Part shown: positions 9,698-64,000 of the stretch, in pieces
How positions within the stretch are numbered: the stretch's first letter is position 1
Layout of the letters: each line of letters starts with the position of its first letter
Source of the DNA: Bolinopsis microptera
Lineage: Eukaryota > Ctenophora > Tentaculata > Lobata > Bolinopsidae
Assembly (NCBI RefSeq): GCF_026151205.1
Contig: NC_087075.1
Span: 7,768,858-7,832,857 of the forward strand
Length of the DNA: 64,000 nt
Direction of reading: 5' to 3'
Position numbers and translations under genes: made by a program
The notes under the pieces: generated by a model
What the model saw: only the letters and a program-made list of their open reading frames with translations
Told to the model about the DNA's origin: nothing
Databases searched by the model: none

Positions 9698-12600
9698 GTG
9701 TTTAACAACATTGATGGGAACGCATCTAACTTTGACAGCTTTATTACTGATATGAGTCAATATGATGAGAAATTTGCAGTTATTGCGCTAGCTGAAACAA
9801 ACATTGATGAGGAAAATAAAGATCTATACAAAATTGATGGTTACAGCAGTGAGTACAACTCCAAAACTGATGGGAAAAAGAAAGGTAGTGGCCTTGGTGT
9901 ATATATTGACAATAAGTACCAATACAGCCGAATCGAAAAGCTATGTAAATGCTCTGACAATCTTGAAACACTTTTTGTTGAGATCACTAACACAGAGGTT
10001 CCACAGATTGCTGGTGTTGTTTACAGGCCCCCTAGTGGTGATATTCTAGATGCACTTGCTGAGCTTGATGTGTTGATGAAATTCCTACCGTCTAATAATG
10101 TAGCCTTGACAGGTGACTTCAATGTTGATCTTTTGGCCCAGGGACGAAACATAGCCGAATTTGAACAAACTATCTACAGTAACAATTTAATCCCTTTGAT
10201 ATCGATTGCCACCCATGCCAAGCCGGGTTGCAACGAAAGCTTAATAGATAATATTTTAGTGAACTCTACTGAGCGTGTCTTAGGATCTGGAATTCTTGAA
10301 TCCAAGATTTCCCATCATAACCCCATCTTCTGTTTCATATCGTGTAATACTAAAGAGAGTCCAAATGATGCCAAACTTAAACCTAAGTATGATTACTGTG
10401 AGTCTAATATAGAAAGCTTCCTTAATGATATCGGAAGGGATATCTACCAATCGAACTTTTCGTATGATGAGGAAGGTTTTGAAAAATTTGTCGAAACTGT
10501 CCATGAAAAAATCGAACTGAATTTCAAAGTGGACTCTACTGCTGGTTTTCAATCAAAACGCAATAGATTGATGAATCCATGGATCACTTCTGCGTTAATT
10601 AAATCTGTGTTTACTAAAGGCTTTCACTACAAGCGATGGAAGGCTTCGTGTACAAAAATCAACCCATTAGGTGAGGAAACTTTATATCTTAAGTATAAGG
10701 AGTATCGTTCTATCCTAAACAAAGCTATAAAATCTGCGAAAAAAGCCCACTATGGGAAAAAATTTGAACTTGCTAAAGGAAATATTAAAAAAACCTGGGA
10801 ATTGATTAACGAACTCAGGGGTAAATCTAAAAAAGATATAAAAGCATCATTCTTAATTGATGGTAGAATTGTAACTGAACGCCGTGAGATTGCTAACGGA
10901 TTTAACATCTACTTCTCGTCTATTGCTCGTACTCTTAATTCAAAAGTTCAATCTTCTGTACCATCTCGTACGGTAACTGATGGCAATTTCAATAAAACGA
11001 AGTTTAAGCAATACCTCAAGGGCAGAGAAAGAATAGTGAACTCTTTTTTTCTCAGCCCCTGTGACGAGGAAGAGATAAGTAAAATTATTGGTAGCCTTGA
11101 AAATGGGAAGGCAAGTGATATCTCTGTTAAAGTCTTAAAAAAGAGTGTAAATTATCTGTCTGGTCATATCTCTAGATTCTTTAATTGGTTCTTGGACAAT
11201 GGGGTCTTTCCAAACAAGCTTAAAACGGGCTCTATTACACCAATTTATAAAAAAGGAGACTCACGATGCCTTGATAACTATAGACCTGTTTCTACATTAC
11301 CGATATTTGGAAAAATACTTGAAAAAATAATTTATAATAGGTTATATAATTACCTTAGTGCTATGAACGTGATTTATGATCGACAATTTGGTTTTAGAAA
11401 ACAACACTCAACATCTCATGCCGTAAACTATTCTGTCAATAAAATACTTAATGAGATTGAACAGAAAAATCATGTAATTGGAATATTTATTGATCTAAGT
11501 AAAGCATTTGACACAATCGAGCACGATAAACTCCTGCATAAACTTGAACACTATGGAGTAAGAGGTATTGCACTAAAAACTCTTGCTAGCTATCTAACAA
11601 ACCGTAGCCAAGTAACTTCTTTTCAAACTGAAAAATCAGACAAGTGTTCAGTTGAGTATGGTGTACCCCAGGGGTCAGTGTTAGGACCTCTACTATTTCT
11701 GATTTATATAAATGATATTGTGAGCTCCTCAAGCTTGGCTGAATTCGTCCTGTTTGCTGATGATACAAATATTTTTGTGATAGGTAGTTCAGCACAGGAA
11801 GCTTTTGAAAAAGCTAATCATGTAATGAAACAGGTCAGTAACTATATGGAGTCTAACAAGTTACATATAAATGCAGGGAAAAGTTGTTACATGCATTTTC
11901 AGCCAGGTTTGTCAAGAGCAACACAGACCTGTGCCAGAACACGGCCCTTTAACAGGAATCTAACGATTTTAATAGATGGCAAAAAGCTAGAAAAAGTTCA
12001 ATGTACAAAGTTTCTTGGGGTGATAATAGACGAACAGCTAAGCTGGGAACCACATCTTAATCATTTATCTTTAAAGCTGAACTCCAGTATTGTATCGATT
12101 AAGAGAATTTGCAAATTCATTCCCAAATCTGAATATTTGAAACTATACAATGCTCTTTTTATGTCACATCTTAGCTATTGTATAAGTTGCTGGGGTGGGA
12201 TCCCTAAACATAAGCTGAATAAAATCTTTGCAATTCAAAAACGATGTATAAGACTGCTATTTGGTAACATTCCCAATTTTGATCATAAGGAATACTATTT
12301 AACCTGTGCACGTTCAAGAACTTATAACGAACATATGGCTAGCAAGAACTACTGTCTTGAACACACTAAACCGCTATTCACTGAGCAGAAAATTATGAAC
12401 CTGGAGAATCTGCACATGTACCATACATTTATGGAACTATTCAAAATTCTTAAATTTGATGTCCCCCAGTCGATTAAAGATCTTTTCAAGTTCTGTCCTA
12501 GAAATGAAAAACTTCGTCTGATTGTCCCATTACTGAGGTTGGATATCTCCCAACAGAACTTTTTGTACACCTCTACGAAAATTTGGAATGACCTCAGCCC

Positions 12601-12757
12601 CTATGTATTCGAAATATGTGATGCTAATGTAGATGGGATAATAATCCCGGGTTCTTCCAAGAATTCAGACTTGTCAGCCTCGTCAGGTGTTATTAAATCT
12701 AATCTTAAAAAGCACTTGCTATCCCTCCAAAATCGAGATGACCCTAATACATGGTAA
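9698..12757 (+). CDS. LINE ORF2: APE-type endonuclease and reverse transcriptase
   Basis: About 1019 codons are open without a break. There is no ATG at the start; a TAG lies six codons upstream, so the native N-terminus is lost. The APE-like endonuclease covers about residues 1-215 (NNIDG, catalytic-acid motif AETNID, VYRPPS, GDFNVD, IDNILVN). The last motif, normally S-D-H or G-D-H, reads S205-H206-H207 here, so the Asp that supports the catalytic His is lost. Reverse transcriptase covers about 480-760 with LSKAFDTIEH, GVPQGSVLGPLL and F686-A-D-D689. A C-terminal Cys/His region follows (about 880-1019). The closest relative in the window is the ORF2 at 44129. The frame is intact but the endonuclease change suggests the copy is inactive. 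Confidence 0.9.
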   Translation: MFNNIDGNASNFDSFITDMSQYDEKFAVIALAETNIDEENKDLYKIDGYSSEYNSKTDGKKKGSGLGVYIDNKYQYSRIEKLCKCSDNLETLFVEITNTEVPQIAGVVYRPPSGDILDALAELDVLMKFLPSNNVALTGDFNVDLLAQGRNIAEFEQTIYSNNLIPLISIATHAKPGCNESLIDNILVNSTERVLGSGILESKISHHNPIFCFISCNTKESPNDAKLKPKYDYCESNIESFLNDIGRDIYQSNFSYDEEGFEKFVETVHEKIELNFKVDSTAGFQSKRNRLMNPWITSALIKSVFTKGFHYKRWKASCTKINPLGEETLYLKYKEYRSILNKAIKSAKKAHYGKKFELAKGNIKKTWELINELRGKSKKDIKASFLIDGRIVTERREIANGFNIYFSSIARTLNSKVQSSVPSRTVTDGNFNKTKFKQYLKGRERIVNSFFLSPCDEEEISKIIGSLENGKASDISVKVLKKSVNYLSGHISRFFNWFLDNGVFPNKLKTGSITPIYKKGDSRCLDNYRPVSTLPIFGKILEKIIYNRLYNYLSAMNVIYDRQFGFRKQHSTSHAVNYSVNKILNEIEQKNHVIGIFIDLSKAFDTIEHDKLLHKLEHYGVRGIALKTLASYLTNRSQVTSFQTEKSDKCSVEYGVPQGSVLGPLLFLIYINDIVSSSSLAEFVLFADDTNIFVIGSSAQEAFEKANHVMKQVSNYMESNKLHINAGKSCYMHFQPGLSRATQTCARTRPFNRNLTILIDGKKLEKVQCTKFLGVIIDEQLSWEPHLNHLSLKLNSSIVSIKRICKFIPKSEYLKLYNALFMSHLSYCISCWGGIPKHKLNKIFAIQKRCIRLLFGNIPNFDHKEYYLTCARSRTYNEHMASKNYCLEHTKPLFTEQKIMNLENLHMYHTFMELFKILKFDVPQSIKDLFKFCPRNEKLRLIVPLLRLDISQQNFLYTSTKIWNDLSPYVFEICDANVDGIIIPGSSKNSDLSASSGVIKSNLKKHLLSLQNRDDPNTW

Positions 12758-41426: not shown

Positions 41427-42040
41427 CTGCAAAATAGAGTCATTAAGAGTTTATTGATGTGGTCCTGTTGAAGGATTGTGTATCCTGTAAGGGCCACTTC
41501 AGAACACTAGAGAATGCAGACAATGTGGAAACATGTACATACCACTTACTTACTAACTTACGTTCATGTTCACGCAGGCCATACATTAACCGAAGCCACA
41601 GATGTGCTTGAGTATCCAGAAATGACAGTGTGATTCTTTTCTGGACCTGTTCCACAATATATAGTAGTGTTGAAGTATTCCAAGATAGGCATTCTCTGAA
41701 TACCTGTCTCAACAAATTTTTTGTTTATTTATTTTTACTCTGAAAATTCTGCTCAAACAATTTTACCTACACACTTAACAATTTCAAACCAAATCACCCC
41801 ATCCAAACCCAGTTTGTCCTGTTGTTGTTAGTGTGTCTGACCTTTGAATGATTTATATATTTTTGAATACTTCAATCACTCTTTTGAAAGTTCTTGAAAA
41901 AATTCTATTCAATCATATTCCCACTTAACCCACCTCATATCACTCACAATGAACCGGCTGATGCTCTTCTCCTTTCAGGTGCAGGGGTCTGTCCAAGCTG
42001 GCCCCCTGGACTCCGGACATATCTCTGATATCATATCATC

Positions 42041-44122
42041 ATGGCTACTACCTCAAGTGCTAGTACCCAAAGGCGTTCCCCTAGACACACTCCTCCTCCT
42101 ACCAACCCAGGATCCAGAGCTAGCATGTCACCATCCGGCAGAGGAGCTACCTCCCAAAAGAAGAAACCTCTAGCAGACAACAAAGCCCTGCGCAGGAACA
42201 GCCCTAGCGCAATGGCCCAGAAAGCTGTGCTGGGTAAACGCCCATCAAAGTCACCCCAAGAACAACCAGAGACATCTGTTCTTAAACCTCCAGGTAATCT
42301 GGTTATTGAAAAGATCAGCCCAAACCTGATATCAGCTTTAGAATCATCGAACCTCAGAGAGAGCCCCAGAAGTCCAATGAGCCCTCTGTACAAGTCCTTT
42401 CCTCCATTCTCCCGTGCTGAAGAGTCTGCTGAAGAACTTGAAATCCAGGATAAACCTACAGTAAAACAACGGGCTTCAAAGAGTGATTGTCCTTGCCGAT
42501 CAACATCAGATGGTAAGGAATGGAAGTTCAAGTGTACCAGATGTTTTCAGCACTGGCATGCTTCCTGTTGCAATCTCAAGGGTGCTAACAACATTCAGCA
42601 CGATACACCTCTTGAAGCTTCTCTGAATATTATTCTCTCAGAATGGCTATGTCCATGGTGTTTCGATACATCATTCCCCAGACCAGGCTCCAGCATGTCA
42701 GCCAAGATGGACAACAACCTAAAGAGCTCTGTAGACTACAGCCAGAACATACAGGCTATATCAGATGCTATTTCTAATGCTGTTGGTAACAGTATGCCTA
42801 CTGTGGAGATTGTATCCCTGGAGACAAGACTGAAGAAGCTGAGTCAAGAGATTCATGAATTTCAGCAGTCCAGAAGTCCATCTGAAGCACCACCTGCTAC
42901 AGAAATCCCCCTCCCTAAATGCACAGAACCTCCAGTGTGTGATTACCTGGTCGATGTGCTAAGTGCTGAGATCCTCAAAGAAGTTACAGAGTTTCTCCTG
43001 GAGAGCCAAGCTAGTAATAAGTTCATCCCGAAGAATGGAAGACAGGTCCTCAAGTTTGGGGAAGACTACTCTTATACTGGTGATTCAGACCCACCCCTAT
43101 CCCCCACAATCCCAGCACCCCTTGCCTCAGCCATAGACGCAGTTACATCAAAGTGCAGACTGACCCATAAGCCCAACTCCATCCTAATAAACTACTACCC
43201 TCCCTCAGTTGATACCACCACTGGTAGCAAGCTCCCTTTTCACTCTGACGATGAGTCTGAGATTATTGCTAACTCAGAAATTGCTACTATCAGCATAGGC
43301 GACGTCAGGAAGGTGTGCTTTAAGTGCATCCATGAGACCGGAAACGAAGCCTCAACTGAGTATGTTCATAGTGTGAGTCCAGAATCTAACTCAGTGTATG
43401 TGATGACACGATCGTCACAAGCCTGGTATCGTCACGGTATTGATGAAACAGGTCCTGCTGAAACTCAGTCTTCTGTGCAGACAGGAAGGTTCTCCATCAC
43501 ACTGAGAACTGTGAGCAAACAGTTTAGCCGGAGCTGCATCATCATGGGCGACTCTAACACCAAGCCCATCAAGTTCGGTGTCGGTACTGGAACCCTTGGA
43601 CAGTCCTTCCCAAGTGAACGTGTTAAAGCCAACAAGGTCAGTGCAATAGACCCTAAGCTCTGCATTGGTTATAGCAACGTCATCTTAGTTTGTGGGACCA
43701 ACGATCTACGAGTTGAAAATGTGCAGTCACCTGGTGATAAACACCAGCTGGTAGACATTCTCCACCTGAAAATCCAGCAGATCCAGAAACTGTGCCCTAA
43801 GGCGAAGTTGTTTGTCACAGCAGTTTTACCGTCTAGACTCCCTAAGATGAATAAAAACATTATGGCATTCAACAGCTTGGTTGATGAAATGTTGTACTCT
43901 AGCTTTAACCAGAATGTATGGCACCTTGGTGTTGGCCACTTTTTCGACGGTAAAGGGTTGCTTGCTATGAAACTCACGAGAAATGGTGATGAAATCCATC
44001 TCGGAGAGCTTGGTATTGCTAAATTTGTGAGATGTCTGAAACAGTGGGTGTATGTGAGGGAGAGACAGGAGAGAGTAAGACAAAGGAAGGCCACCCGACC
44101 AGTGGGAGTTTATCCCACTTAG
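42041..44122 (+). CDS. LINE ORF1: PHD finger, AlkB-like dioxygenase, SGNH hydrolase
   Basis: 693 residues; ATG in good context (CATCATGG). Residues 1-145 are a Ser/Pro-rich basic tail. A PHD-type C4HC3 finger spans C150-C207 (C150, C152, C165, C168, H173, C176, C204, C207). A predicted helical region follows (about 235-285). An AlkB-like 2-oxoglutarate/Fe(II) dioxygenase covers about 305-492, with GEDYSYTG, ILINYYPP, iron ligands H401 and D403 (FHSDDE), third ligand H465, and the 2-oxoglutarate arginines in R483FSITLR489. An SGNH hydrolase covers about 498-680, with G503-D-S505, C-G-T-N554-D and the D650-E-I-H653 dyad. SGNH esterases are known in ORF1 of some CR1/L2-type LINEs; the added AlkB domain is the unusual part. 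Likely roles are RNA binding, RNA demethylation or repair and ester hydrolysis in the retrotransposition particle, by inference. Confidence 0.85.
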   Translation: MATTSSASTQRRSPRHTPPPTNPGSRASMSPSGRGATSQKKKPLADNKALRRNSPSAMAQKAVLGKRPSKSPQEQPETSVLKPPGNLVIEKISPNLISALESSNLRESPRSPMSPLYKSFPPFSRAEESAEELEIQDKPTVKQRASKSDCPCRSTSDGKEWKFKCTRCFQHWHASCCNLKGANNIQHDTPLEASLNIILSEWLCPWCFDTSFPRPGSSMSAKMDNNLKSSVDYSQNIQAISDAISNAVGNSMPTVEIVSLETRLKKLSQEIHEFQQSRSPSEAPPATEIPLPKCTEPPVCDYLVDVLSAEILKEVTEFLLESQASNKFIPKNGRQVLKFGEDYSYTGDSDPPLSPTIPAPLASAIDAVTSKCRLTHKPNSILINYYPPSVDTTTGSKLPFHSDDESEIIANSEIATISIGDVRKVCFKCIHETGNEASTEYVHSVSPESNSVYVMTRSSQAWYRHGIDETGPAETQSSVQTGRFSITLRTVSKQFSRSCIIMGDSNTKPIKFGVGTGTLGQSFPSERVKANKVSAIDPKLCIGYSNVILVCGTNDLRVENVQSPGDKHQLVDILHLKIQQIQKLCPKAKLFVTAVLPSRLPKMNKNIMAFNSLVDEMLYSSFNQNVWHLGVGHFFDGKGLLAMKLTRNGDEIHLGELGIAKFVRCLKQWVYVRERQERVRQRKATRPVGVYPT
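44101..44119 (+). promoter_or_regulatory. Hairpin at the ORF1/ORF2 junction
   Basis: AGTGGGA-GTTTA-TCCCACT forms a perfect seven-base-pair stem directly before the ORF1 stop (TAG 44120-44122), and the ORF2 ATG follows six bases later. The placement suits a role in termination-reinitiation, which other bicistronic LINEs use to make ORF2. Confidence 0.55.
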
Positions 44123-44128
44123 TTTATC

Positions 44129-47100
44129 ATGATTATGAAACTTATTAAAGATGTGTGCGACCCCTGTAGTAAATACATTAATATTGGCCAGCCACTCTTA
44201 GAATGTGAAAATTGCAGCAAAGTTGTTCATACTAAGTGCTTCAGATCCGCGAAATTTACAAGCAAAAACGGTCTATGGATGTGTAGTGATTGCTGTAGTA
44301 CAATAGAAGATAGGTATTGCCCATTTCCAAGCAGCCAAAGATATGATGATTCAGATAAATTCTATGATACAAACAACCAGGAAGATGTCACCATAGCTAA
44401 ATTCTCTTCAATACTTGAAGACTGTAAGCGTTACACAAAACAAGAACTAGCAAACTCAATCAGCAAACTTTTTCCTGAGAAAAATAAAAATTCTGCTTAT
44501 CTGCCCGCTCTGTTTTGCAATATAGATGGGTTTGCTAGTAATTTTGACAGCTTTTTAATAGAACATAAGACCCTCCCGTGTAATTTTGATGTCATTGGAT
44601 TGGCTGAGACCAACATCGATCCAAGCCAACAAGGCTTATACCAAATCCCCTCCTATACAACATTTTGTCAAGTACCATTCCCTGATAAGAAAAAAGGAAC
44701 AGGAGTATCCTTATATGTCTCTGATCGCCTGAATGCTGTAGTAATCGAAAATCTATCTCACTGTACAAAAGATATTGAGTGCTTATTTGTTGAAATTACT
44801 CTTAGCTCGGGTGATAAACTGACATATGGGGTTGCTTATCGTCCTCCAAATGGCTGTAGTGAGACCTTTTGTCAAACTCTTGAGGATATATCTAAGCAGT
44901 TGGCTGGTAAAAAGTTCCATATTCTTGGCGATTTTAACTCTAACCTCCTCAATGTACAAACCTCCAGCCAGTTATTTGAGGACACGTTACTTCGTAACAA
45001 TATGTATCCTACTATATCACTTGCTACCCACTTCCGTCCTAACTGTAAAAACTCATGTATTGACAATATCCTCACATCAGAGATAGATCATGTACTTCTC
45101 TCCGGTGTATTGAATGATAGGATTGGTGACCATGCCTTTATATTCACCTTCACGTCAATTCCTACCGAAAACAGTACTGAAAAACTTAAACATGTTCGCT
45201 ACTATGATTATTCAAGTTCCAAACTCACTAATTTTGTTAATGAACTCGAGGTGAAGGTGAATGACTTGACTCCCTCGGTAAACTTCAATGAGTTCTTGGA
45301 CTGCTTCAATGAAACACTTGATAAACACTGTAAGCTTGATGTACCAAAAGTTACCAAAAGGACTCCCAAACTCAACCCGTGGATTACCGATGGAATCATT
45401 GTCTCAGTTGAAAGAAAACATGAACTCTGTAGAGACTGGTCAAGCACTGTAACAAATAGAAACCCTGAGGGTAATGTATTGCTCTATAAAGTCTTCAGTG
45501 ACTACCGAAGAATGCTTAAAAGTATTATCAAGGTCGCCAAACGATCGTACTACTGCAATGAAATCCATAAAAATATAGAAAACAGCAAAAAAACGTGGCA
45601 GATAATCAATGAGCTCAGGGGCAAGAAAAAGAAGCAAACTAAGCCTCCCTTTATCATAAACAACGAACGAATCATGAATCGTAGAGTCATAGCCAATGGA
45701 TTCAACTCTTACTTTGTTTCTATTGCCCCTAAGCTCAATGAAACACTTAGTAGCAGTGAGGCCTCTGGTTTACCAATTCTCCCTATAAAAACATTCTATG
45801 ATTTCCTTGGAAAGACTAATGAAAAATCGATTATGTTAGAAGACTGTACACCTTATGAGATAACGGAAATAATAAAAGGATTCGAAAATGGAAAAGCAAG
45901 TGATATTCCTGTTAGTGTAATCAAAAGATCATCTCACGTAATTACACCGATCCTTAGTCGATACATCAACATCTTAATGTCTAATGGCACGTTCCCCGAC
46001 GTTTTAAAGACTGGTAGAATAACTCCTGTATTTAAGAAGGGAAACCCTGAAGAGATAGAAAACTACCGCCCAATCTCTACTCTCTCTATATTTGGTAAAA
46101 TCTTTGAAAAGATCATTTACTCAAGAATATATTCGTTTGCTAGCTCACAGGGTATAATATCTAAAACACAATTTGGCTTCAGGCAGTCACACTCTACTTC
46201 ACATGCAGTTAATCACTCAGTAAACCTTATAACTGAATCTCTAAAACTTAAGCATCATGTCTTAGGCATATTCATAGACCTTAGCAAAGCTTTTGATACA
46301 ATAGATCATGGTACATTACTTGTCAAATTACAGGGCTATGGGATACGTGGGGTGGCAAATGATCTTATAAAAAGTTACTTAACAAATAGATCACAATATA
46401 CTGAAGTTGTTGGTGAGAAATCTGACGCCTTGAAAATACAGTTTGGAGTCCCTCAGGGTTCGATTCTTGGACCTCTCTTATTTCTCCTATATATTAATGA
46501 TATCGCCAACAGCTCCAGTTTGGGATCATTTGTCACCTTCGCTGATGACACCAATATATTTGTGACTGGGAAATCTAAAAAGGAGGCATATATGCGTGGT
46601 AATTCTCTTTTAGCTAGTTTATATTCCTACATGCGAGCAAACAAACTCCATGTCAACTTGTCTAAATGCTGTTTCATTCACTTTAAACCAGCATCGTCCT
46701 CCCAGACTGACAATAATTCTGAATATACTCTAACCATTGATAACTTTCCAATAAAACAAGTTGCATCTGCTAAGTTTCTGGGAGTCGTCATCGATGAAAA
46801 GCTAACCTGGGAAGAACATATAAAATCACTTAGGCGTTCTCTCAGCCATGCAACATCAACTCTCTGCCGCCTACGCTGCTCCCTCCCAGATTTCTTACAC
46901 CGCCAGTTGTATTACACTCTATTTGAATCACACCTCTCCTATTGTATCACGGTTTGGGGTGGGGCAGCCAAAACTCGTATAAGTTCTGTATTCAAAGCAC
47001 AAAAATATTGTCTCAGGGTACTGTTTGGCGACAGGGAGGCATACCTAGATAAATTTAAGACCTGTGCTCGTGCTCGACCGTTTGGCAACCAAAATCTGAA

Positions 47101-47524
47101 CAAAAAATTTTTCTTGAAAGAGCACACGAAACCTTTGTTCAAGGAACACGGAATACTTGCCGTCCAAAACCTGTACACTTACCATTGTTTCCTTGAGCTC
47201 TATAAAATCATGAAATTCCGTGCTCCGATTTCCCTCCATGAAAATTTCACCTGCTCAAGTAGGAAACCCACCCTTATACTAAGCCAAGCAGACCCCCCTG
47301 ACAACTTCAATAGCAGAACGACTCGTATTTGGAACGTAATTGTGCCTAAGCTTGGTATACGTGACTACTGTCTAAGTGTGGCCTGCCTGAAGTCTAGGAT
47401 GAAGCAATCACTGCTCGTCAACCAGCATAACCATGCTGATCTTGATTGGACAAACAAAGATTTCGAATGCTCTAATCTAAATTTTGACATTAAGTCTACC
47501 CTAGGGTCCACACATCCAAAATGA
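44129..47524 (+). CDS. LINE ORF2: PHD finger, APE endonuclease, reverse transcriptase
   Basis: 1131 residues, intact. A canonical PHD finger lies at 10-55 (C10, C13, C26, C29, H34, C37, C52, C55, with W50 two before C52). An APE-type endonuclease covers about 128-345 (LFCNIDG, E160 in LAETNID, AYRPPN, GDFNSN, IDNIL, G333-D334-H335). Reverse transcriptase covers about 600-890 (TGRITPVFKKG, GIFIDLSKAFDTIDH, FGVPQGSILGPLL, F804-A-D-D807). The C-terminal region has LGVVIDEKLTWEEH and a Cys/His segment. The enzyme nicks target DNA and copies the LINE RNA at the nick. It is about half identical by eye to the 9698 ORF2. Confidence 0.93.
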   Translation: MIMKLIKDVCDPCSKYINIGQPLLECENCSKVVHTKCFRSAKFTSKNGLWMCSDCCSTIEDRYCPFPSSQRYDDSDKFYDTNNQEDVTIAKFSSILEDCKRYTKQELANSISKLFPEKNKNSAYLPALFCNIDGFASNFDSFLIEHKTLPCNFDVIGLAETNIDPSQQGLYQIPSYTTFCQVPFPDKKKGTGVSLYVSDRLNAVVIENLSHCTKDIECLFVEITLSSGDKLTYGVAYRPPNGCSETFCQTLEDISKQLAGKKFHILGDFNSNLLNVQTSSQLFEDTLLRNNMYPTISLATHFRPNCKNSCIDNILTSEIDHVLLSGVLNDRIGDHAFIFTFTSIPTENSTEKLKHVRYYDYSSSKLTNFVNELEVKVNDLTPSVNFNEFLDCFNETLDKHCKLDVPKVTKRTPKLNPWITDGIIVSVERKHELCRDWSSTVTNRNPEGNVLLYKVFSDYRRMLKSIIKVAKRSYYCNEIHKNIENSKKTWQIINELRGKKKKQTKPPFIINNERIMNRRVIANGFNSYFVSIAPKLNETLSSSEASGLPILPIKTFYDFLGKTNEKSIMLEDCTPYEITEIIKGFENGKASDIPVSVIKRSSHVITPILSRYINILMSNGTFPDVLKTGRITPVFKKGNPEEIENYRPISTLSIFGKIFEKIIYSRIYSFASSQGIISKTQFGFRQSHSTSHAVNHSVNLITESLKLKHHVLGIFIDLSKAFDTIDHGTLLVKLQGYGIRGVANDLIKSYLTNRSQYTEVVGEKSDALKIQFGVPQGSILGPLLFLLYINDIANSSSLGSFVTFADDTNIFVTGKSKKEAYMRGNSLLASLYSYMRANKLHVNLSKCCFIHFKPASSSQTDNNSEYTLTIDNFPIKQVASAKFLGVVIDEKLTWEEHIKSLRRSLSHATSTLCRLRCSLPDFLHRQLYYTLFESHLSYCITVWGGAAKTRISSVFKAQKYCLRVLFGDREAYLDKFKTCARARPFGNQNLNKKFFLKEHTKPLFKEHGILAVQNLYTYHCFLELYKIMKFRAPISLHENFTCSSRKPTLILSQADPPDNFNSRTTRIWNVIVPKLGIRDYCLSVACLKSRMKQSLLVNQHNHADLDWTNKDFECSNLNFDIKSTLGSTHPK

Positions 47525-48192
47525 TTATCTTGAAATTGAAAATTAACTGGGTGTGCATTTTCCTTTGTCTTACTAACGTGAGCGCAGTGTAGTGAGAAAG
47601 TGTTTTTAACAGATTTATTATTAGACTTAGGATTATGATTTTTAATATATTACATTGATATAAGATTTATTTTTGATAGGTACTTAATAAAGTTGATGAA
47701 TTTCCCTCCCTATTAAAATTTTAAACCCATTTAGTGAAAATTGATAAACGAAGATCTAGATATTGATACATATTATAACCAACATTGCTTATATTCTGCC
47801 TTGTAAACAAAGAGCAAATCTTCTTAATGCCTTCTTCCTGTCCTAAAACTAAAACTTCATCCTATTAAAGTAAAGGCCAGTTGTTACCACAAGCTATTAT
47901 ACCGTCCCTCTCAAAAACATGCCTCAGCCTCCATCAAAAACAATTTTAGTTTTCAGTCCTTCTAGTTTCCAAAAATCTACCGAGCTAGTGTTCTGGTGTG
48001 CACAAAAGCCCCTAAGCCCGTGCATTCCTTGCCCCCGCTAGCTGCCAGTCCTTGACAAACTTCCAATAGCAAAGATCAACTAGTCATTTACAAATTGAGC
48101 ACTATACAATTTTAATTGTTTTAAATATTTGACTTTGTAAAATGAGCTAAAACATTGATTTATTAGTTTCATTGATTTATTAGTTTCATTGT
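47525..48192 (+). other. LINE 3' UTR
   Basis: Non-coding tail ending in a duplicated AT-rich 17-base word, comparable to the tail of the element at 9.7-13.1 kb. Confidence 0.5.
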
Positions 48193-48877: not shown

Positions 48878-50440
48878 GAGGACTGAAGAGTACTGAAGAG
48901 TACTGAGGAGGATGGCTGAGAAGGATGGCTGAGGAGGATGGCTGAGGAGGATGACTGAGGAGGATGACTGAGGAGGATGACTGAGAGGGAGGAGAAGGAT
49001 CAGGAAGACCCAGGAGGAGGAGGAGGAGGAGGACCCAGAAGGAGGACCTAGGAGGAGGAGGAGAACTGAGGAGGAGGACTCAGGAGGAGGACTGAGGAGG
49101 ACTGAGAAGGAGGAGGACTGAGAAGGAGGAGGACTGAGGAGGATGGCTGAGGAGGATGGCTGAGGAGGATGACTGAGAGGGAGGAGGAGGAAGAGGAGGA
49201 AGAAGACTGAGGAGGAGGAGGAGAAGGACTGAGGAGGAGAAGGAGGACCCAGGCGGAGGAGGACCAAGGAGGAGGAGGACCCAGAAGGAGGACCCAGGAA
49301 AAGGCCCCAGGAGGAGGAGGAGGACTGGGTAGGAGGAGAACTGTCGAGGACTGATGAGGAGGACTGAGGACGAGGAGGAAGAGTAGGAGGAGGACTGAGG
49401 AGGGGAGGAAGAAGAGGACTGGGGAGGATCAGGAAGACCCAGGAGGACCCAGGAGGAGGAGGAGGAGGACCCAGGAGGAGGAGGAGGACTGAGGAGGACT
49501 GAGGAGGAGGACTGACGATGACTGAGAAGGAGGAGGACTGAGGAGTACTGAGGAGGATGGCTGAGGAGGATGGCTGGGGAGGATGGCTGAGGAGGATGAC
49601 TGAGGAGGATGACTGAGAGGGAGGAGGAGGAGGACTCAGGAGGAGGACTCAGAAGGAAGAGGAGGAGGACTCAGGAGGAGGACTCAGGAGGAGGACTTAG
49701 GAGAAATGAGAAGGAGGACTGAGGAGAACTGAGGAGGAGGATGAGGAGGACTGAATAGGAGGAGGAGAAGGAGGGGGACTGGGAGAGGACTGGGGAGGAG
49801 GAGGACTGATGAGAAGGATGGGGAGGAGGACCCAGGAGGAGGAGGACTGAGGACCGAGGAGGAAGAGGAGGAGGATGAAGAGGAGGAGGAGGACCCAGGA
49901 GGAGGAGGACTGAGGAGGACTGAGGAGGACTGAGGAGGATGGCTGAGGAGGATGACTGAGAGGGAAGAGGAGGAGGAGGAGGAGGAGGAGGACTGAGGAG
50001 GACTGAGAAGGAGGAGGAGGAGGAGGAGGACTGAATAGGAGGAGGAGGAGAGGGACTGGGGGAGGACTGAGGAGGAGGAATGAGGATGGAGGACTGAGGA
50101 GAAGGAGAAGGAGAAGGACTGAGGAGGAGGACTGAGGAGGACTGAGGAGGATGGCTGAGGAGGATGACTGAGAGGGAAGAGGAGGAGGAGGAGGAGGAGG
50201 ACTGAGGAGGACTGAGAAGGAGGAGGAGGAGGATGGAGGACTGAGGAGAAGGATGAGGAGGAGGACCCAGGAGGAGGACTCAGGAGGAGCAGGAGGAGGA
50301 TGAAGAGGAGGAGGAGGACTGTTGAGGACTGATGATGAGGACGAGGAGGAGGAGTAGGAGGAGGACTGAGGAGGGGAGGAGTAAGAGGACTGAGGAAGAT
50401 CAGGAAGACCCAGGGGGAGGAGGAGGAAGAGTAGGAGGAT
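48878..50440. repeat. 1.56-kb purine-rich (GA/GGA) tract
   Basis: Nearly every base is A or G on the plus strand, built of GAGGAGGA, GACTGAGGAGGA and GATGGCTGAGGAG units. The minus strand gives Ser/Pro-rich frames of up to 286 codons that are not genes. Such strand asymmetry favours triplex (H-DNA) and G-quadruplex formation and stalls replication. Assembly length is doubtful. Confidence 0.93.
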
Positions 50441-56103: not shown

Positions 56104-56680
56104 GACCTCAAAAATAGTACAGGGTGGCCCATAAGTGACTACCCACACGCAACCTCTTAATAACTCACGTAATTCGTCTCCAAATTGCACCAAAATTTCA
56201 GAGATTATAGATATGGGTCAAACTTAGATTTTCTGAAAGTTTTGTAAGCCACGCCCAATTACAGTGGGCGTGGCGTGACACTCCCTCTTTTTCACTATTG
56301 TCTTCATAAAATGAGAACGCTTTAAGCTAAGAACTCAAAATTTTTTGCACACATTTGGCTTGATAATTGAAAACCTTTCCCAAAGTTTCAAGTTCATTGG
56401 TTAAAATATGGCTAAGTTATGACCATTTCAAAACTCATCGGATACGTGATCCGAGCACTCAGTCAGTGATCTCGTCACTTGGGTAATGGCCTGTTTGGCT
56501 CACATGCACCGCTTGATTGGTTGCAGCCTGCTTATGGGCCGGCCTATACAGCTGACTGCACCTAAAACGCTATCACACGAATTTATGGTGGTGTCACCAT
56601 TTCAGGGCTTGTTAGCCCTGCTAGTCACAGGTTCCTTACAATCAATAAAAAGGAATGAACCATCCATTGAATCATCGAAA

Positions 56681-57169
56681 ATGGTTCACTATCCTCCCTT
56701 TACTGCAGAACAACGATTGTTCGTCTACCTGAAGAAAGAAAATGGGGAGTTCTACCCTCAGATTAAACGACAATTTCAGATGAAATTCAACCGACCACCC
56801 CCTTGCCGGAAAAGCTGCTTTGACATTCATCACAAGATCAAGTTTACGTTTTCTGCACACGATCGGCGAAGAGTCGGCAGAAGACGAACTGCAAGGACTG
56901 TAGAAAACATCACGATGGTTGTTGGTGACGTGATGGACACACCTAAGATTGGCACCCGGAAACGAGCTCCTGCCTTAGACATCAGCAGAACCCTTCAGCG
57001 AATCCTAAAGCAAGACCTTTCTAACCGGGCCTACCGAATCACAAAGAAACACAAACTTTTGGACCGTGATTTCCAATCGAGGATAGATTTCGCCAACACA
57101 TTCCTGTCCAAGCAGAATGTGGATCCCTACTTTGAGGACGAAATCTGGTACAGCGACAAGGCCATATAA
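56681..57169 (+). pseudogene. Truncated Tc1/mariner transposase, left arm
   Basis: From the likely start (MVHYPPFTAEQRLFVYLKKE) about 162 residues encode the N-terminal helix-turn-helix region and linker (GRRRTARTVENI, ISRTLQRILKQDL). They end at EIWYSDKAI, just after the first catalytic Asp of the DD(E/D) triad; the usual SDE is SDK. The rest of the catalytic domain is deleted, so it could at most bind DNA. The frame is also open 65 codons upstream of this ATG, without homology that I recognise. Confidence 0.75.
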
Positions 57170-57332
57170 ACGGATATGTCAACTCCCAGAATGCAATTCA
57201 CTGGGGCTCTAGTCACTTATGGGCCACCCCAGATGCAGATCGTGACCTTTTCAGGAAAAGCCGTTCTCTCCACCACTTCATCCGGTCTAGTAGAGCCCCA
57301 GTGAATTGCATTCTGGGAGTTGACATATCCGT

Positions 57333-57821
57333 TTATATGGCCTTGTCGCTGTACCAGATTTCGTCCTCAAAGTAGGGATCCACATTCTGCTTGGACAGGA
57401 ATGTGTTGGCGAAATCTATCCTCGATTGGAAATCACGGTCCAAAAGTTTGTGTTTCTTTGTGATTCGGTAGGCCCGGTTAGAAAGGTCTTGCTTTAGGAT
57501 TCGCTGAAGGGTTCTGCTGATGTCTAAGGCAGGAGCTCGTTTCCGGGTGCCAATCTTAGGTGTGTCCATCACGTCACCAACAACCATCGTGATGTTTTCT
57601 ACAGTCCTTGCAGTTCGTCTTCTGCCGACTCTTCGCCGATCGTGTGCAGAAAACGTAAACTTGATCTTGTGATGAATGTCAAAGCAGCTTTTCCGGCAAG
57701 GGGGTGGTCGGTTGAATTTCATCTGAAATTGTCGTTTAATCTGAGGGTAGAACTCCCCATTTTCTTTCTTCAGGTAGACGAACAATCGTTGTTCTGCAGT
57801 AAAGGGAGGATAGTGAACCAT
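57333..57821 (-). pseudogene. Truncated Tc1/mariner transposase, right arm
   Basis: Exact inverted copy of the left-arm frame: same residues, same truncation after WYSDKAI. No sequence difference was noticed between the arms' proteins. Confidence 0.75.
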
Positions 57822-58385
57822 TTTCGATGATTCAATGGATGGTTCATTCCTTTTTATTGATTGTAAGGAACCTGTGACTAGCAGGGCTAACAAGCCCTGA
57901 AATGGTGACACCACCATAAATTCGTGTGATAGCGTTTTAGGTGCAGTCAGCTGTATAGGCCGGCCCATAAGCAGGCTGCAACCAATCAAGCGGTGCATGT
58001 GAGCCAAACAGGCCATTACCCAAGTGACGAGATCACTGACTGAGTGCTCGGATCACGTATCCGATGAGTTTTGAAATGGTCATAACTTAGCCATATTTTA
58101 ACCAATGAACTTGAAACTTTGGGAAAGGTTTTCAATTATCAAGCCAAATGTGTGCAAAAAATTTTGAGTTCTTAGCTTAAAGCGTTCTCATTTTATGAAG
58201 ACAATAGTGAAAAAGAGGGAGTGTCACGCCACGCCCACTGTAATTGGGCGTGGCTTACAAAACTTTCAGAAAATCTAAGTTTGACCCATATCTATAATCT
58301 CTGAAATTTTGGTGCAATTTGGAGACGAATTACGTGAGTTATTAAGAGGTTGCGTGTGGGTAGTCACTTATGGGCCACCCTGTAT

Positions 58386-58535
58386 TATATTAAACATTTC
58401 TATTTTATCCCTACACATCTGTAAATAACTAGAATTGTGTAACCTTAAATTATTTCAGAATTATAACTATTGTGAATTCAATAAAATAACTATCACTTTT
58501 GTATCCTTGTATCCTTGTATCCTTGTATCCTAAGA
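58386..58535 (+). repeat. LINE 3' UTR remnant ending in (TTGTATCC)n
   Basis: Continuation of the 3' UTR interrupted by the palindromic transposon, ending in four TTGTATCC units (about 58499-58532). Such octamer tails mark LINE 3' ends. Confidence 0.65.
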
Positions 58536-62591: not shown

Positions 62592-64000
62592 ATGACAAAT
62601 TTTAATAATGCAGCTGATAGGTTTCACAACCTCTGCATTGGTCATTGTAACATTCAAGGAGGGCTTCTCAATTTAGCTAAAAGTAATGAACTTTCCCAAC
62701 TTATTAGAGATCATAAATTAGACATACTTTCCCTAAATGAGATGAATCTTAATGATACTATTGACACAGACACCATAAATATTCCTTCCTCCTTCAACCT
62801 TATGCGATGCGACAGGCCAAACAGTTCTAGGGGTGGTTGTGGCTTAATGATAAACAAAAAACTAGCTTACACAGAATTAGTTATGGATAGTAAGCTTGAT
62901 AACATTGAAGCATTATGGGTGAAGCTTAAGAATAGCAAGATCAATGTTTGCTGCTTCTATCGCTCTGGAAATTATTGCAGTGTTGATAACTTTATTGAAT
63001 ACATTCATTTTTGCATGAAAAAATTGAATGGGAAAAAGGTTATCTGGATTGGGGATATAAACATTGACCAGAATAATATCTCATCCACCCAGTACAAAAA
63101 ATTAGATATGACCTTGAGATGTTACAATCTAGTTCAAACCATTCAAGGGATAACTAGAGTTGCTAAACGTGGAGACAATGTTACCCAGACTACTATTGAT
63201 GTAATATTCACTAACTGTTATGCAGATTTTGTTCAATCTTCTGTTCTTGATGAACGTATTGGAGATCATCAAGCCATTATGTGTGAGATAGATTGTAAAG
63301 TACCTATAGCTCCTAAATTTGAGAAGGTTGAAATTAGAAATCATTGTAAACGTAATGTTAAACAATTCTTAGACTATCTAGATACCTGTTCTGATTACAG
63401 TCCACTATTGGAAAGTACAGATGTTGAAGCTATCACTGCTGGCCTTTGTCATCATATTGAACAGGCATATGCAACCTTCTCCCCTTGCAAGACCATAGAA
63501 AGGCATGAAAAGTTCATACATAAACCTTCTACTGAACTTTTAAATGCCATTAATCATACACATTTTCTTCTAAAGAAATTCCGTAAAAAGAAGGATAAGA
63601 GAGACAATGGAAATTGCAATAAATGTGGTACATGTAGCAAATGTATAAAGTGTAATGAGGCCTGGGATTGCTACAAGATTCAGAGAAATATTAGAAATAA
63701 ATTAGCTAAAACCTGCAAAAAGGCTAATGTAATCGATGATCTACAAGTTAAAAGTGCCAAGAATGATCTTAAAGGGATATGGAAAACTGTCAAACTGGCA
63801 TCAAATATGACCCCTGGTACAACTAATTGTCAAACTATCAATGAGAATGATCCTGAGCTATTTAACTTTCATTTTGCAAATGTTGGATCAAGATTACAAA
63901 ATCAGGCCCCCAATATTGAAAGAGTTAGTTTTACTGATTTTTTACCTCCTAGAACTTCTAATATCTCATTTGATAGATTCCAAGAAATAAATGAAACTGA
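62592..64000 (+). CDS. LINE ORF2, 5' part: APE endonuclease and Cys cluster
   Basis: ATG 62592 opens a frame still open at the window end (about 469 codons). The endonuclease covers about 15-232: IGHCNIQGGL, SLNEMNL with the catalytic Glu, CFYRSGN, IGDININQ-like, TTIDVIFTN and I-G224-D225-H226. At 342-354 a cluster of five Cys at exact three-residue steps (C342, 345, 348, 351, 354) lies between the endonuclease and the reverse transcriptase, which must follow beyond 64000. Unlike the ORF2 at 44129, no PHD finger precedes the endonuclease. Confidence 0.85.
   Translation, partial: MTNFNNAADRFHNLCIGHCNIQGGLLNLAKSNELSQLIRDHKLDILSLNEMNLNDTIDTDTINIPSSFNLMRCDRPNSSRGGCGLMINKKLAYTELVMDSKLDNIEALWVKLKNSKINVCCFYRSGNYCSVDNFIEYIHFCMKKLNGKKVIWIGDINIDQNNISSTQYKKLDMTLRCYNLVQTIQGITRVAKRGDNVTQTTIDVIFTNCYADFVQSSVLDERIGDHQAIMCEIDCKVPIAPKFEKVEIRNHCKRNVKQFLDYLDTCSDYSPLLESTDVEAITAGLCHHIEQAYATFSPCKTIERHEKFIHKPSTELLNAINHTHFLLKKFRKKKDKRDNGNCNKCGTCSKCIKCNEAWDCYKIQRNIRNKLAKTCKKANVIDDLQVKSAKNDLKGIWKTVKLASNMTPGTTNCQTINENDPELFNFHFANVGSRLQNQAPNIERVSFTDFLPPRTSNISFDRFQEINET

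Follow-up and report, generated by a model that had tools for sequence, protein, structure and literature searches.

An AlkB-type dioxygenase joined to an SGNH hydrolase in ORF1 of LINE retrotransposons, and in a Helitron, of the ctenophore Bolinopsis microptera

Introduction

The first open reading frame (ORF1) of long interspersed nuclear elements (LINEs) encodes a protein that binds the RNA of the element and is needed for its transposition. In LINEs of the CR1/L2 type this protein is said to carry an esterase, a PHD finger or both, as Kapitonov and Jurka reportedly described in 2003. According to the 2014 survey of 448 Jockey-superfamily elements by Metcalfe and Casane, CR1/L2-type LINEs combine a PHD finger and an SGNH esterase in ORF1 with an endonuclease and a reverse transcriptase in ORF2, their ORF1 has evolved reticulately, and the esterase type of ORF1 is found only in vertebrate groups (PMC4120745). 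An SGNH hydrolase likewise forms part of the ORF1 protein of the zebrafish LINE ZfL2-1 (4c1b; PMC3905857), and the GDSL esterase of bdelloid long terminal repeat (LTR) elements, Penelope-like elements and LINEs is an SGNH module found across element classes (PMC5408684). Mobile elements can also encode dioxygenases: a Ty3/Gypsy retroelement of the orchid Phalaenopsis has an open reading frame for an AlkB-type demethylase that is active in vitro on RNA carrying N6-methyladenosine (m6A) (PMC9289625), and in fungi a TET/JBP enzyme, which is a 2-oxoglutarate- and Fe(II)-dependent (2OG-Fe(II)) dioxygenase, has been passed between unrelated mobile elements, Helitrons among them (PMC12730594). Here we describe a LINE of the ctenophore Bolinopsis microptera whose ORF1 unites an AlkB-type dioxygenase with an SGNH hydrolase behind a PHD finger, and we follow the two enzyme domains through the genome of this animal. 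The element lies in a stretch of 64,000 nucleotides (contig NC_087075.1 of assembly GCF_026151205.1, positions 7,768,858 to 7,832,857 of the forward strand), which is called the window below and to whose first letter all positions without a contig name refer.

A three-domain ORF1 in a young LINE

ORF1 of this element (42041..44122; all features of the window described here are on the + strand) begins with an ATG, encodes 693 amino acids without a stop and is followed after only 6 nucleotides by ORF2, in agreement with a preliminary description, made from the letters of the window alone, of an intact frame directly upstream of a LINE ORF2. The protein joins a PHD finger, an AlkB dioxygenase and an SGNH hydrolase, each with its complete catalytic or metal-binding residues, so that the architecture and the active-site residues named in that description are both borne out. 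The PHD finger (residues 150-207, 42488..42661), recognised from zinc ligands read in the sequence, has a complete C4HC3 set (C150, C152, C165, C168, H173, C176, C204 and C207), which is kept in those rows of a 12-row ORF1 alignment that span the finger; the most distant row, at 23% identity, is a second ORF1 of the window, P0002, and has no such finger. Pfam matches the finger weakly (PHDvar_NSD, E 0.05, below the cut-off), and the PHD finger of a relative, L039, matches that of BPTF (E 2.5e-4). The AlkB-type 2OG-Fe(II) dioxygenase (residues 305-492, 42953..43516) matches PF13532 at E 5.6e-19 and 69.6 bits (cut-off 31.2) over residues 340-489, and its ligands H401, D403, H465, R483 and R489, which make up the HxD...H and R-x5-R pattern, are invariant in 12 of 12 rows. 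The SGNH hydrolase (residues 498-672, 43532..44056) is weak by Pfam alone (PF13472, E 0.13 in the window ORF1, P0001) and is recognised from its catalytic residues and from matches of the family profile to solved SGNH enzymes, namely 2hsj (E 0.0016) and 4c1b, the zebrafish ZfL2-1 esterase (E 0.0045). Its residues S505, N554, D650 and H653 are again invariant in all 12 rows, the serine column being uncertain in P0002, whose catalytic serine may sit elsewhere in a gapped stretch of the alignment.

Alignment with other copies places the whole element at approximately 41656..48192, and one copy, L032, is 99.6% identical to it over 6541 columns, the alignment running out to 48192. The 5' untranslated region of 385 bases (41656..42040) starts at a boundary that is common to most copies, some having shorter, trimmed 5' ends. 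ORF2 (44129..47524, 1131 amino acids, recognised from Pfam and reverse transcriptase matches) begins with a PHD-like finger (44156..44293; PF00628 E 1.8e-4, below the curated cut-off; C1_1 1.6e-4) and continues with an endonuclease part, which gives a weak Exo_endo_phos_2 match (0.014, below the cut-off), and a reverse transcriptase domain (46037..46792; RVT_1, E 2.2e-35), which matches L1 ORF2p (4.6e-16) and R2 (8.6e-16). No RNase H was found in it among Pfam matches at E up to 1, and a non-LTR reverse transcriptase without RNase H is what a LINE of the Jockey superfamily (CR1/L2-like) would have. This element encodes two PHD-type fingers, one in each reading frame, and by sequence the same holds for the relatives L039 and L040. 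The 3' end carries a short tandem array with a unit of 17 bases in 2.3 copies (48153..48191 by repeat analysis), and by eye no clear target-site duplication was seen in the flanks.

Throughout the genome (264,652,675 bases in 232 contigs) there are at least 15 full-length copies of this ORF1 at 98-100% identity, including the window's own, 13 of which have no internal stop; eight further near-full-length matches stand at 58-59% identity, none with a stop, and five more at about 45%, all these counts being lower bounds from 64 scored candidates of 1015. Identity of 98-100% and the lack of stops in most copies mark a young family that is still mostly intact, and the window ORF1 belongs to a recently active LINE. 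In one otherwise young copy (L031, C2:22209300-22217700) an insertion of about 1.5 kb breaks ORF2.

Spread of AlkB and SGNH among mobile elements

A second LINE within the window has an ORF1 of its own (P0002, 60784..62436, 550 amino acids), in which Pfam finds AlkB (PF13532, 4e-19) followed by SGNH (PF13472, 1.8e-4, below the curated cut-off) and no PHD finger. The start of its ORF2, the endonuclease part, lies at 62646..63281, as found by tblastn with the first ORF2 (28% identity, E 3e-9). Counted among 79 scored candidates of 815, and setting aside the partial matches and one full-length match of 87% identity that has 10 stops (C4:1982247), this family comprises 23 full-length copies of 96-100% identity including its own, 22 of them without stops; a sister family stands at about 66% identity.

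Genome-wide there are at least 151 matches to the AlkB profile, a lower bound since the best 150 of 587 candidates were scored, and those listed all lie above the Pfam cut-off. The frames that contain them vary in length, and several lengths recur: there are frames of about 551, 593, 611, 646, 676, 697, 707, 749, 777 and 843 amino acids, and giant frames of 2225-3388 amino acids also occur. Host genes seem to account for at least three of the 151: human ALKBH2 is matched by L043 at 3.9e-60 and human ALKBH3 by L045 at 1.6e-27, and L044 is taken as a host gene from its sequence and its place in the tree described below.

Eighteen further element places were examined, 13 found by AlkB (L037-L042 and L046-L052) and five by SGNH (L059-L063), and both domains are present in every one of them. 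PF13532 recognises AlkB in 15 of these places; the other three were assigned by motif and tree, namely L059, which matched PF03171 (0.0022) instead, and L061 and L063, which matched neither profile at E up to 0.1. Pfam recognises SGNH in L037, L038, L040, L041 and L042 (E 0.0079 or lower), in L049 (0.039) and in L059-L063, the best such match among other element ORF1s reaching 6.1e-14. In L046, L047, L051 and L052 it was called from neighbouring SGNH profile hits (the frame around the hit has a stop in L047, and the hit lies in a different, shorter frame in L052); in L039, L048 and L050 it was called by motif alone, Pfam giving no SGNH in L048 and L050 and none in L039 at E up to 0.01. One further LINE type, L042 and L050, has AlkB, a coiled-coil-like stretch and SGNH in this order. 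Many LINE families share the combination of AlkB and SGNH, and so does at least one Helitron. The protein singled out in the preliminary description is real, and rather than standing alone it is one of many families, with a second AlkB-SGNH ORF1 in the same window and a Helitron that shares the pair.

Families of ORF1 with SGNH only had been expected from SGNH frames of 426-523 amino acids that have no counterpart among the listed AlkB matches. This reading was dropped, as all five such frames examined (L059-L063) have the AlkB ligand pattern, only L060 and L062 being positive for PF13532; the five come from a longer SGNH list, and SGNH-only elements may exist elsewhere. Scans of viral contigs and of bacterial and archaeal contigs with the ORF1 alignment gave 26 and 55 pattern matches, respectively, and no relatives by tblastn.

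L017 and L027 form a mosaic, with 95-100% identity beginning at the end of ORF1 and continuing into ORF2 and 73-84% in 150-column windows of AlkB, a pattern that looks as if segments of ORF1 had been swapped between subfamilies. In L059, L060 and L062 a hydrophobic stretch with a terminal NPGP, without D-x-E, directly precedes the endonuclease; we take it to be reminiscent of the 2A-like peptides of LINEs, in which D-x-E is usual.

A Helitron that carries the pair

A giant polyprotein frame at C10:16870800-16887000, with its domains assigned by Pfam, extends over two adjoining places. The first of them, L037, holds in one frame SGNH (8e-6), AlkB (4.4e-21), repeats, DUF6570 and Helitron_like_N (3.1e-22), and L053, the next stretch of this frame, holds a PIF1-like helicase (2.9e-22). 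Because Helitron_like_N and PIF1 lie in the same frame, with the Rep-type nuclease region and the helicase of a Helitron both in place, a rolling-circle element also carries the pair, in the order SGNH then AlkB, which is the reverse of that in LINE ORF1. Four other frames (L046, L047, L051 and L052) resemble L037 in the AlkB part and in the frame, a likeness limited to the parts that were read, and three of them (L046, L047 and L052) group with it in the tree, from which L051 is absent; together with L037/L053 they would make up a Helitron type.

Ancestry and substrate class of the AlkB domain

When the family profile was compared with solved proteins, the AlkB-type matches were ALKBH2 (1.8e-13), ALKBH3 (5.6e-13) and ALKBH8 (1.3e-6), which together with the match to PF13532 agree with the AlkB assignment of the preliminary description. 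These three were the only AlkB-type matches: the m6A erasers ALKBH5 and FTO, as well as E. coli AlkB, were absent from the 36 distinct sequences of this search at E up to 10. ALKBH2, ALKBH3 and AlkB remove 1-methyladenine and 3-methylcytosine, and a glutamate after H-x-D-x probably helps to select these bases. The corresponding motif is HRDDE in ALKBH2 and HSDDE in ALKBH3, and H-x-D-[D/N]-E is found in 24 of 25 element AlkB domains that were cut out, the exception being L062 with H-N-D-G-E. The domains for trees and for this count were excised by means of the H-x-D and R-x5-R pattern, so that these ligands are partly guaranteed; every element locus put through the excision yielded an AlkB domain. 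m6A was rejected as the likely substrate, the nearest solved relatives being ALKBH2 and ALKBH3, which are of the 1-methyladenine/3-methylcytosine type, and not ALKBH5 or FTO.

The tree of AlkB domains comprises 22 element rows and nine outside rows (one host ALKBH2-like and two host ALKBH3-like genes, human ALKBH2 and ALKBH3, three bacterial sequences and one from a phage). Left out were L003 and L051 as near copies, L062 as close to L060, a badly cut ALKBH8 fragment and the phage sequence L058, in which the pattern found no domain. The element domains form one side of a branch with support of 92/91, short of the tool's star, and without the long-branched L042 and L050 the remaining 20 group at 95/92, starred. 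An earlier tree without L059-L063 had placed L042 and L050, weakly supported, with the cellular rows, which the later tree did not. In the tree of 22 and nine rows, the LINE types and the Helitron type do not separate in a resolved order. A recent capture of AlkB from host ALKBH2 or ALKBH3 was considered and rejected, as the host genes lie outside the element cluster; the tree is unrooted, and transfer could have gone either way.

Selection on AlkB and SGNH

The ratio of nonsynonymous to synonymous change (dN/dS) was estimated between related elements by the Nei-Gojobori method with a codon bootstrap in ten pairs, and in five element lineages it shows purifying selection on AlkB. The AlkB ratio is 0.08-0.13 in the three pairs among L017, L027 and L028 (with a dS of about 0.9 between L017 and L027), 0.12 in L038/L041, 0.19 in L060/L062 and 0.05 in L042/L050, and in the Helitron-type pair L037/L047 it is 0.15 as against 0.62 for the stretch that precedes AlkB. 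Where SGNH could be measured, its ratio is 0.11-0.22. In L061/L063, L039/L048 and P0001/L026, which are three of the ten pairs, AlkB is saturated at synonymous sites and gives no ratio. L026 is the nearest relative of the window's own family, whose young copies in turn differ too little to gauge selection.

Other features of the window

The window has a GC content of about 38%. A third LINE ORF2 (9698-12757) shares 42% identity with the one at 44129 and matches Exo_endo_phos at 8.3e-4, below the cut-off; upstream of it, 21 ORF1 proteins used as queries found nothing at E <0.1. Shortly behind the first LINE, at 48902-50439, a long array of purine-rich, (GAG)n-like sequence shows strong skew in both GC and AT. 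At 56111-58391 lies a perfect inverted repeat with two arms of 1101 bases each, 100% complementary and 79 bases apart, each with a frame of 227 amino acids; it is either a fold-back element or an artefact of the assembly.

Possible functions of the pair

The reading we prefer, and whose chances we judge to be about even, is that the element removes lesions of the 1-methyladenine/3-methylcytosine type from its own single-stranded RNA and complementary DNA (cDNA). 1-Methyladenine and 3-methylcytosine arise mainly in single-stranded nucleic acid and block reverse transcriptases. The ORF1 protein would bind the RNA of the element within a ribonucleoprotein (RNP), as is usual for such proteins, and AlkB would oxidatively strip alkyl groups of the kind removed by ALKBH2 and ALKBH3 (1-methyladenine, 3-methylcytosine) off the single-stranded RNA and the first-strand cDNA. 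These lesions would otherwise block the reverse transcriptase of the element, and an eraser belonging to the RNP itself would provide a clean template at the moment of copying. SGNH might bind to or tether the RNP at membranes, as has been proposed for the ZfL2-1 ORF1 protein, or might act in deacylation, and the PHD finger might tether the RNP to chromatin. The presence of the pair in a Helitron fits a common single-stranded nucleic-acid substrate, because the Helitron intermediate is single-stranded DNA. That the retrotransposon carries a demethylase or repair enzyme of its own had already been suggested in the preliminary description, and the conserved ligands, the selection and the spread of the domain support this part of it, whereas its m6A part does not agree with relatives that are ALKBH2 and ALKBH3 and not ALKBH5 or FTO. 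Several points weigh against a repair role of this kind. The substrate class is deduced from distant relatives, and because the element domains form a separate, long-branched cluster, their specificity may have shifted. Repair also leaves unexplained why AlkB is constantly accompanied by SGNH, wherever the two were examined. Among the near-identical copies of the window family, the AlkB ratios (0.15 for P0001/L009, 0.60 for P0001/L003) come from too few changes, and other near-identical pairs look loose (0.85 for L017/L018, 0.36 for L035/L036), again with few changes.

The same domain could serve in counter-defence, with AlkB erasing a methyl mark that the host places deliberately on the nucleic acid of mobile elements (m6A or 1-methyladenosine (m1A) in RNA, N6-methyladenine (6mA) in DNA), much as TET/JBP in fungal transposons is thought to undo cytosine methylation. 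We consider this unlikely, though well worth bearing in mind: the spread over different element types of one genome looks like an arms race, the orchid Gypsy AlkB demethylates m6A RNA in vitro (PMC9289625), and many lineages of fungal transposons, Helitrons among them, carry TET/JBP enzymes (PMC12730594). The closest solved relatives, however, are ALKBH2 and ALKBH3 rather than the m6A erasers, a solved DNA N6-methyladenine demethylase matched one relative (L039) at no better than E 0.5, and in mammals m6A promotes L1 while ALKBH5 suppresses it (PMC7873242). A bolder form of the idea, which we regard as rather improbable, would see AlkB and SGNH as a mobile cassette of two enzymes, exchanged between LINEs and rolling-circle Helitrons, long kept in ctenophores and jointly erasing alkyl and acyl marks on the nucleic acid of the element to counter a host defence based on modification.

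AlkB might instead act elsewhere, on host tRNA or on protein, or be an RNA-binding part in which catalysis is of little weight, which seems to us more improbable again. AlkB relatives do include tRNA and protein modifiers, and catalytic domains of ORF1 can be used for binding, because the ZfL2-1 esterase has a low turnover and a proposed role in membrane binding (PMC3905857). The sampled families retain the ligands of Fe(II) and 2OG as well as the glutamate that follows H-x-D-x, which pure binding would not need, with the caveat that part of the domains were excised by that same ligand pattern. The known cis-preference of ORF1 proteins also favours the element's own RNA as the target. Finally, the reading frame might not be part of an element at all but a captured host ALKBH gene, a chance fusion or an assembly artefact, a general possibility in a genome in which host ALKBH2- and ALKBH3-like genes exist, and one to which we assign almost no weight. 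There are 15 full-length copies of the frame, spread over several chromosomes; most have a common 5' end, and those read further have the same layout of ORF1 and ORF2; families at 59% and 45% identity keep the same order, and the host genes lie apart from the element domains in the tree. The multiple copies of the element rule out a host gene or a chance frame.

If removal of such lesions by the element is indeed what AlkB is for, non-LTR retrotransposons can encode a nucleic-acid demethylase of their own, and this trait can be spread widely over the mobile elements of a single animal genome and be shared with Helitrons. The purpose of the catalytic domains in LINE ORF1 would become testable, and so would the idea that transposition is limited by base modification or alkylation damage. 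The elements also offer enzymology a natural set of AlkB variants that stand apart from the cellular ones in the tree.

Comparison with known systems

A LINE ORF1 with PHD finger and esterase, AlkB in an LTR element and dioxygenases in Helitrons are all already known. Like the preliminary description, which knew of no account of this architecture, full-text literature searches yielded no description of a LINE ORF1 or a Helitron with AlkB; they did not cover Repbase, subscription journals lay mostly outside them, and a mention in an unopened text is possible. In the main text of the survey of 448 elements the words AlkB, 2OG, oxygenase and demethylase are absent (PMC4120745), as are AlkB and oxygenase in that of the ZfL2-1 paper (PMC3905857) and AlkB and Helitron in that of the paper on the bdelloid esterase (PMC5408684). 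The Phalaenopsis AlkB differs in belonging to an LTR element of a plant, in being ALKBH5-like and in being encoded in an additional reading frame, with no SGNH or PHD seen in the part of the paper used here (PMC9289625). Fungal TET/JBP belongs to another family and acts on 5-methylcytosine; the part of that paper used here reports none in retrotransposons and does not mention AlkB (PMC12730594). Cellular ALKBH2 and ALKBH3 share with the element domains the ligands and the H-x-D-D-E motif and are their best solved matches, whereas the element domains cluster apart from them and are joined to SGNH and in some cases to a PHD finger as well. It is this fusion of AlkB and SGNH, with or without PHD, in the ORF1 of LINEs, and its sharing with a Helitron, that appear to be new.

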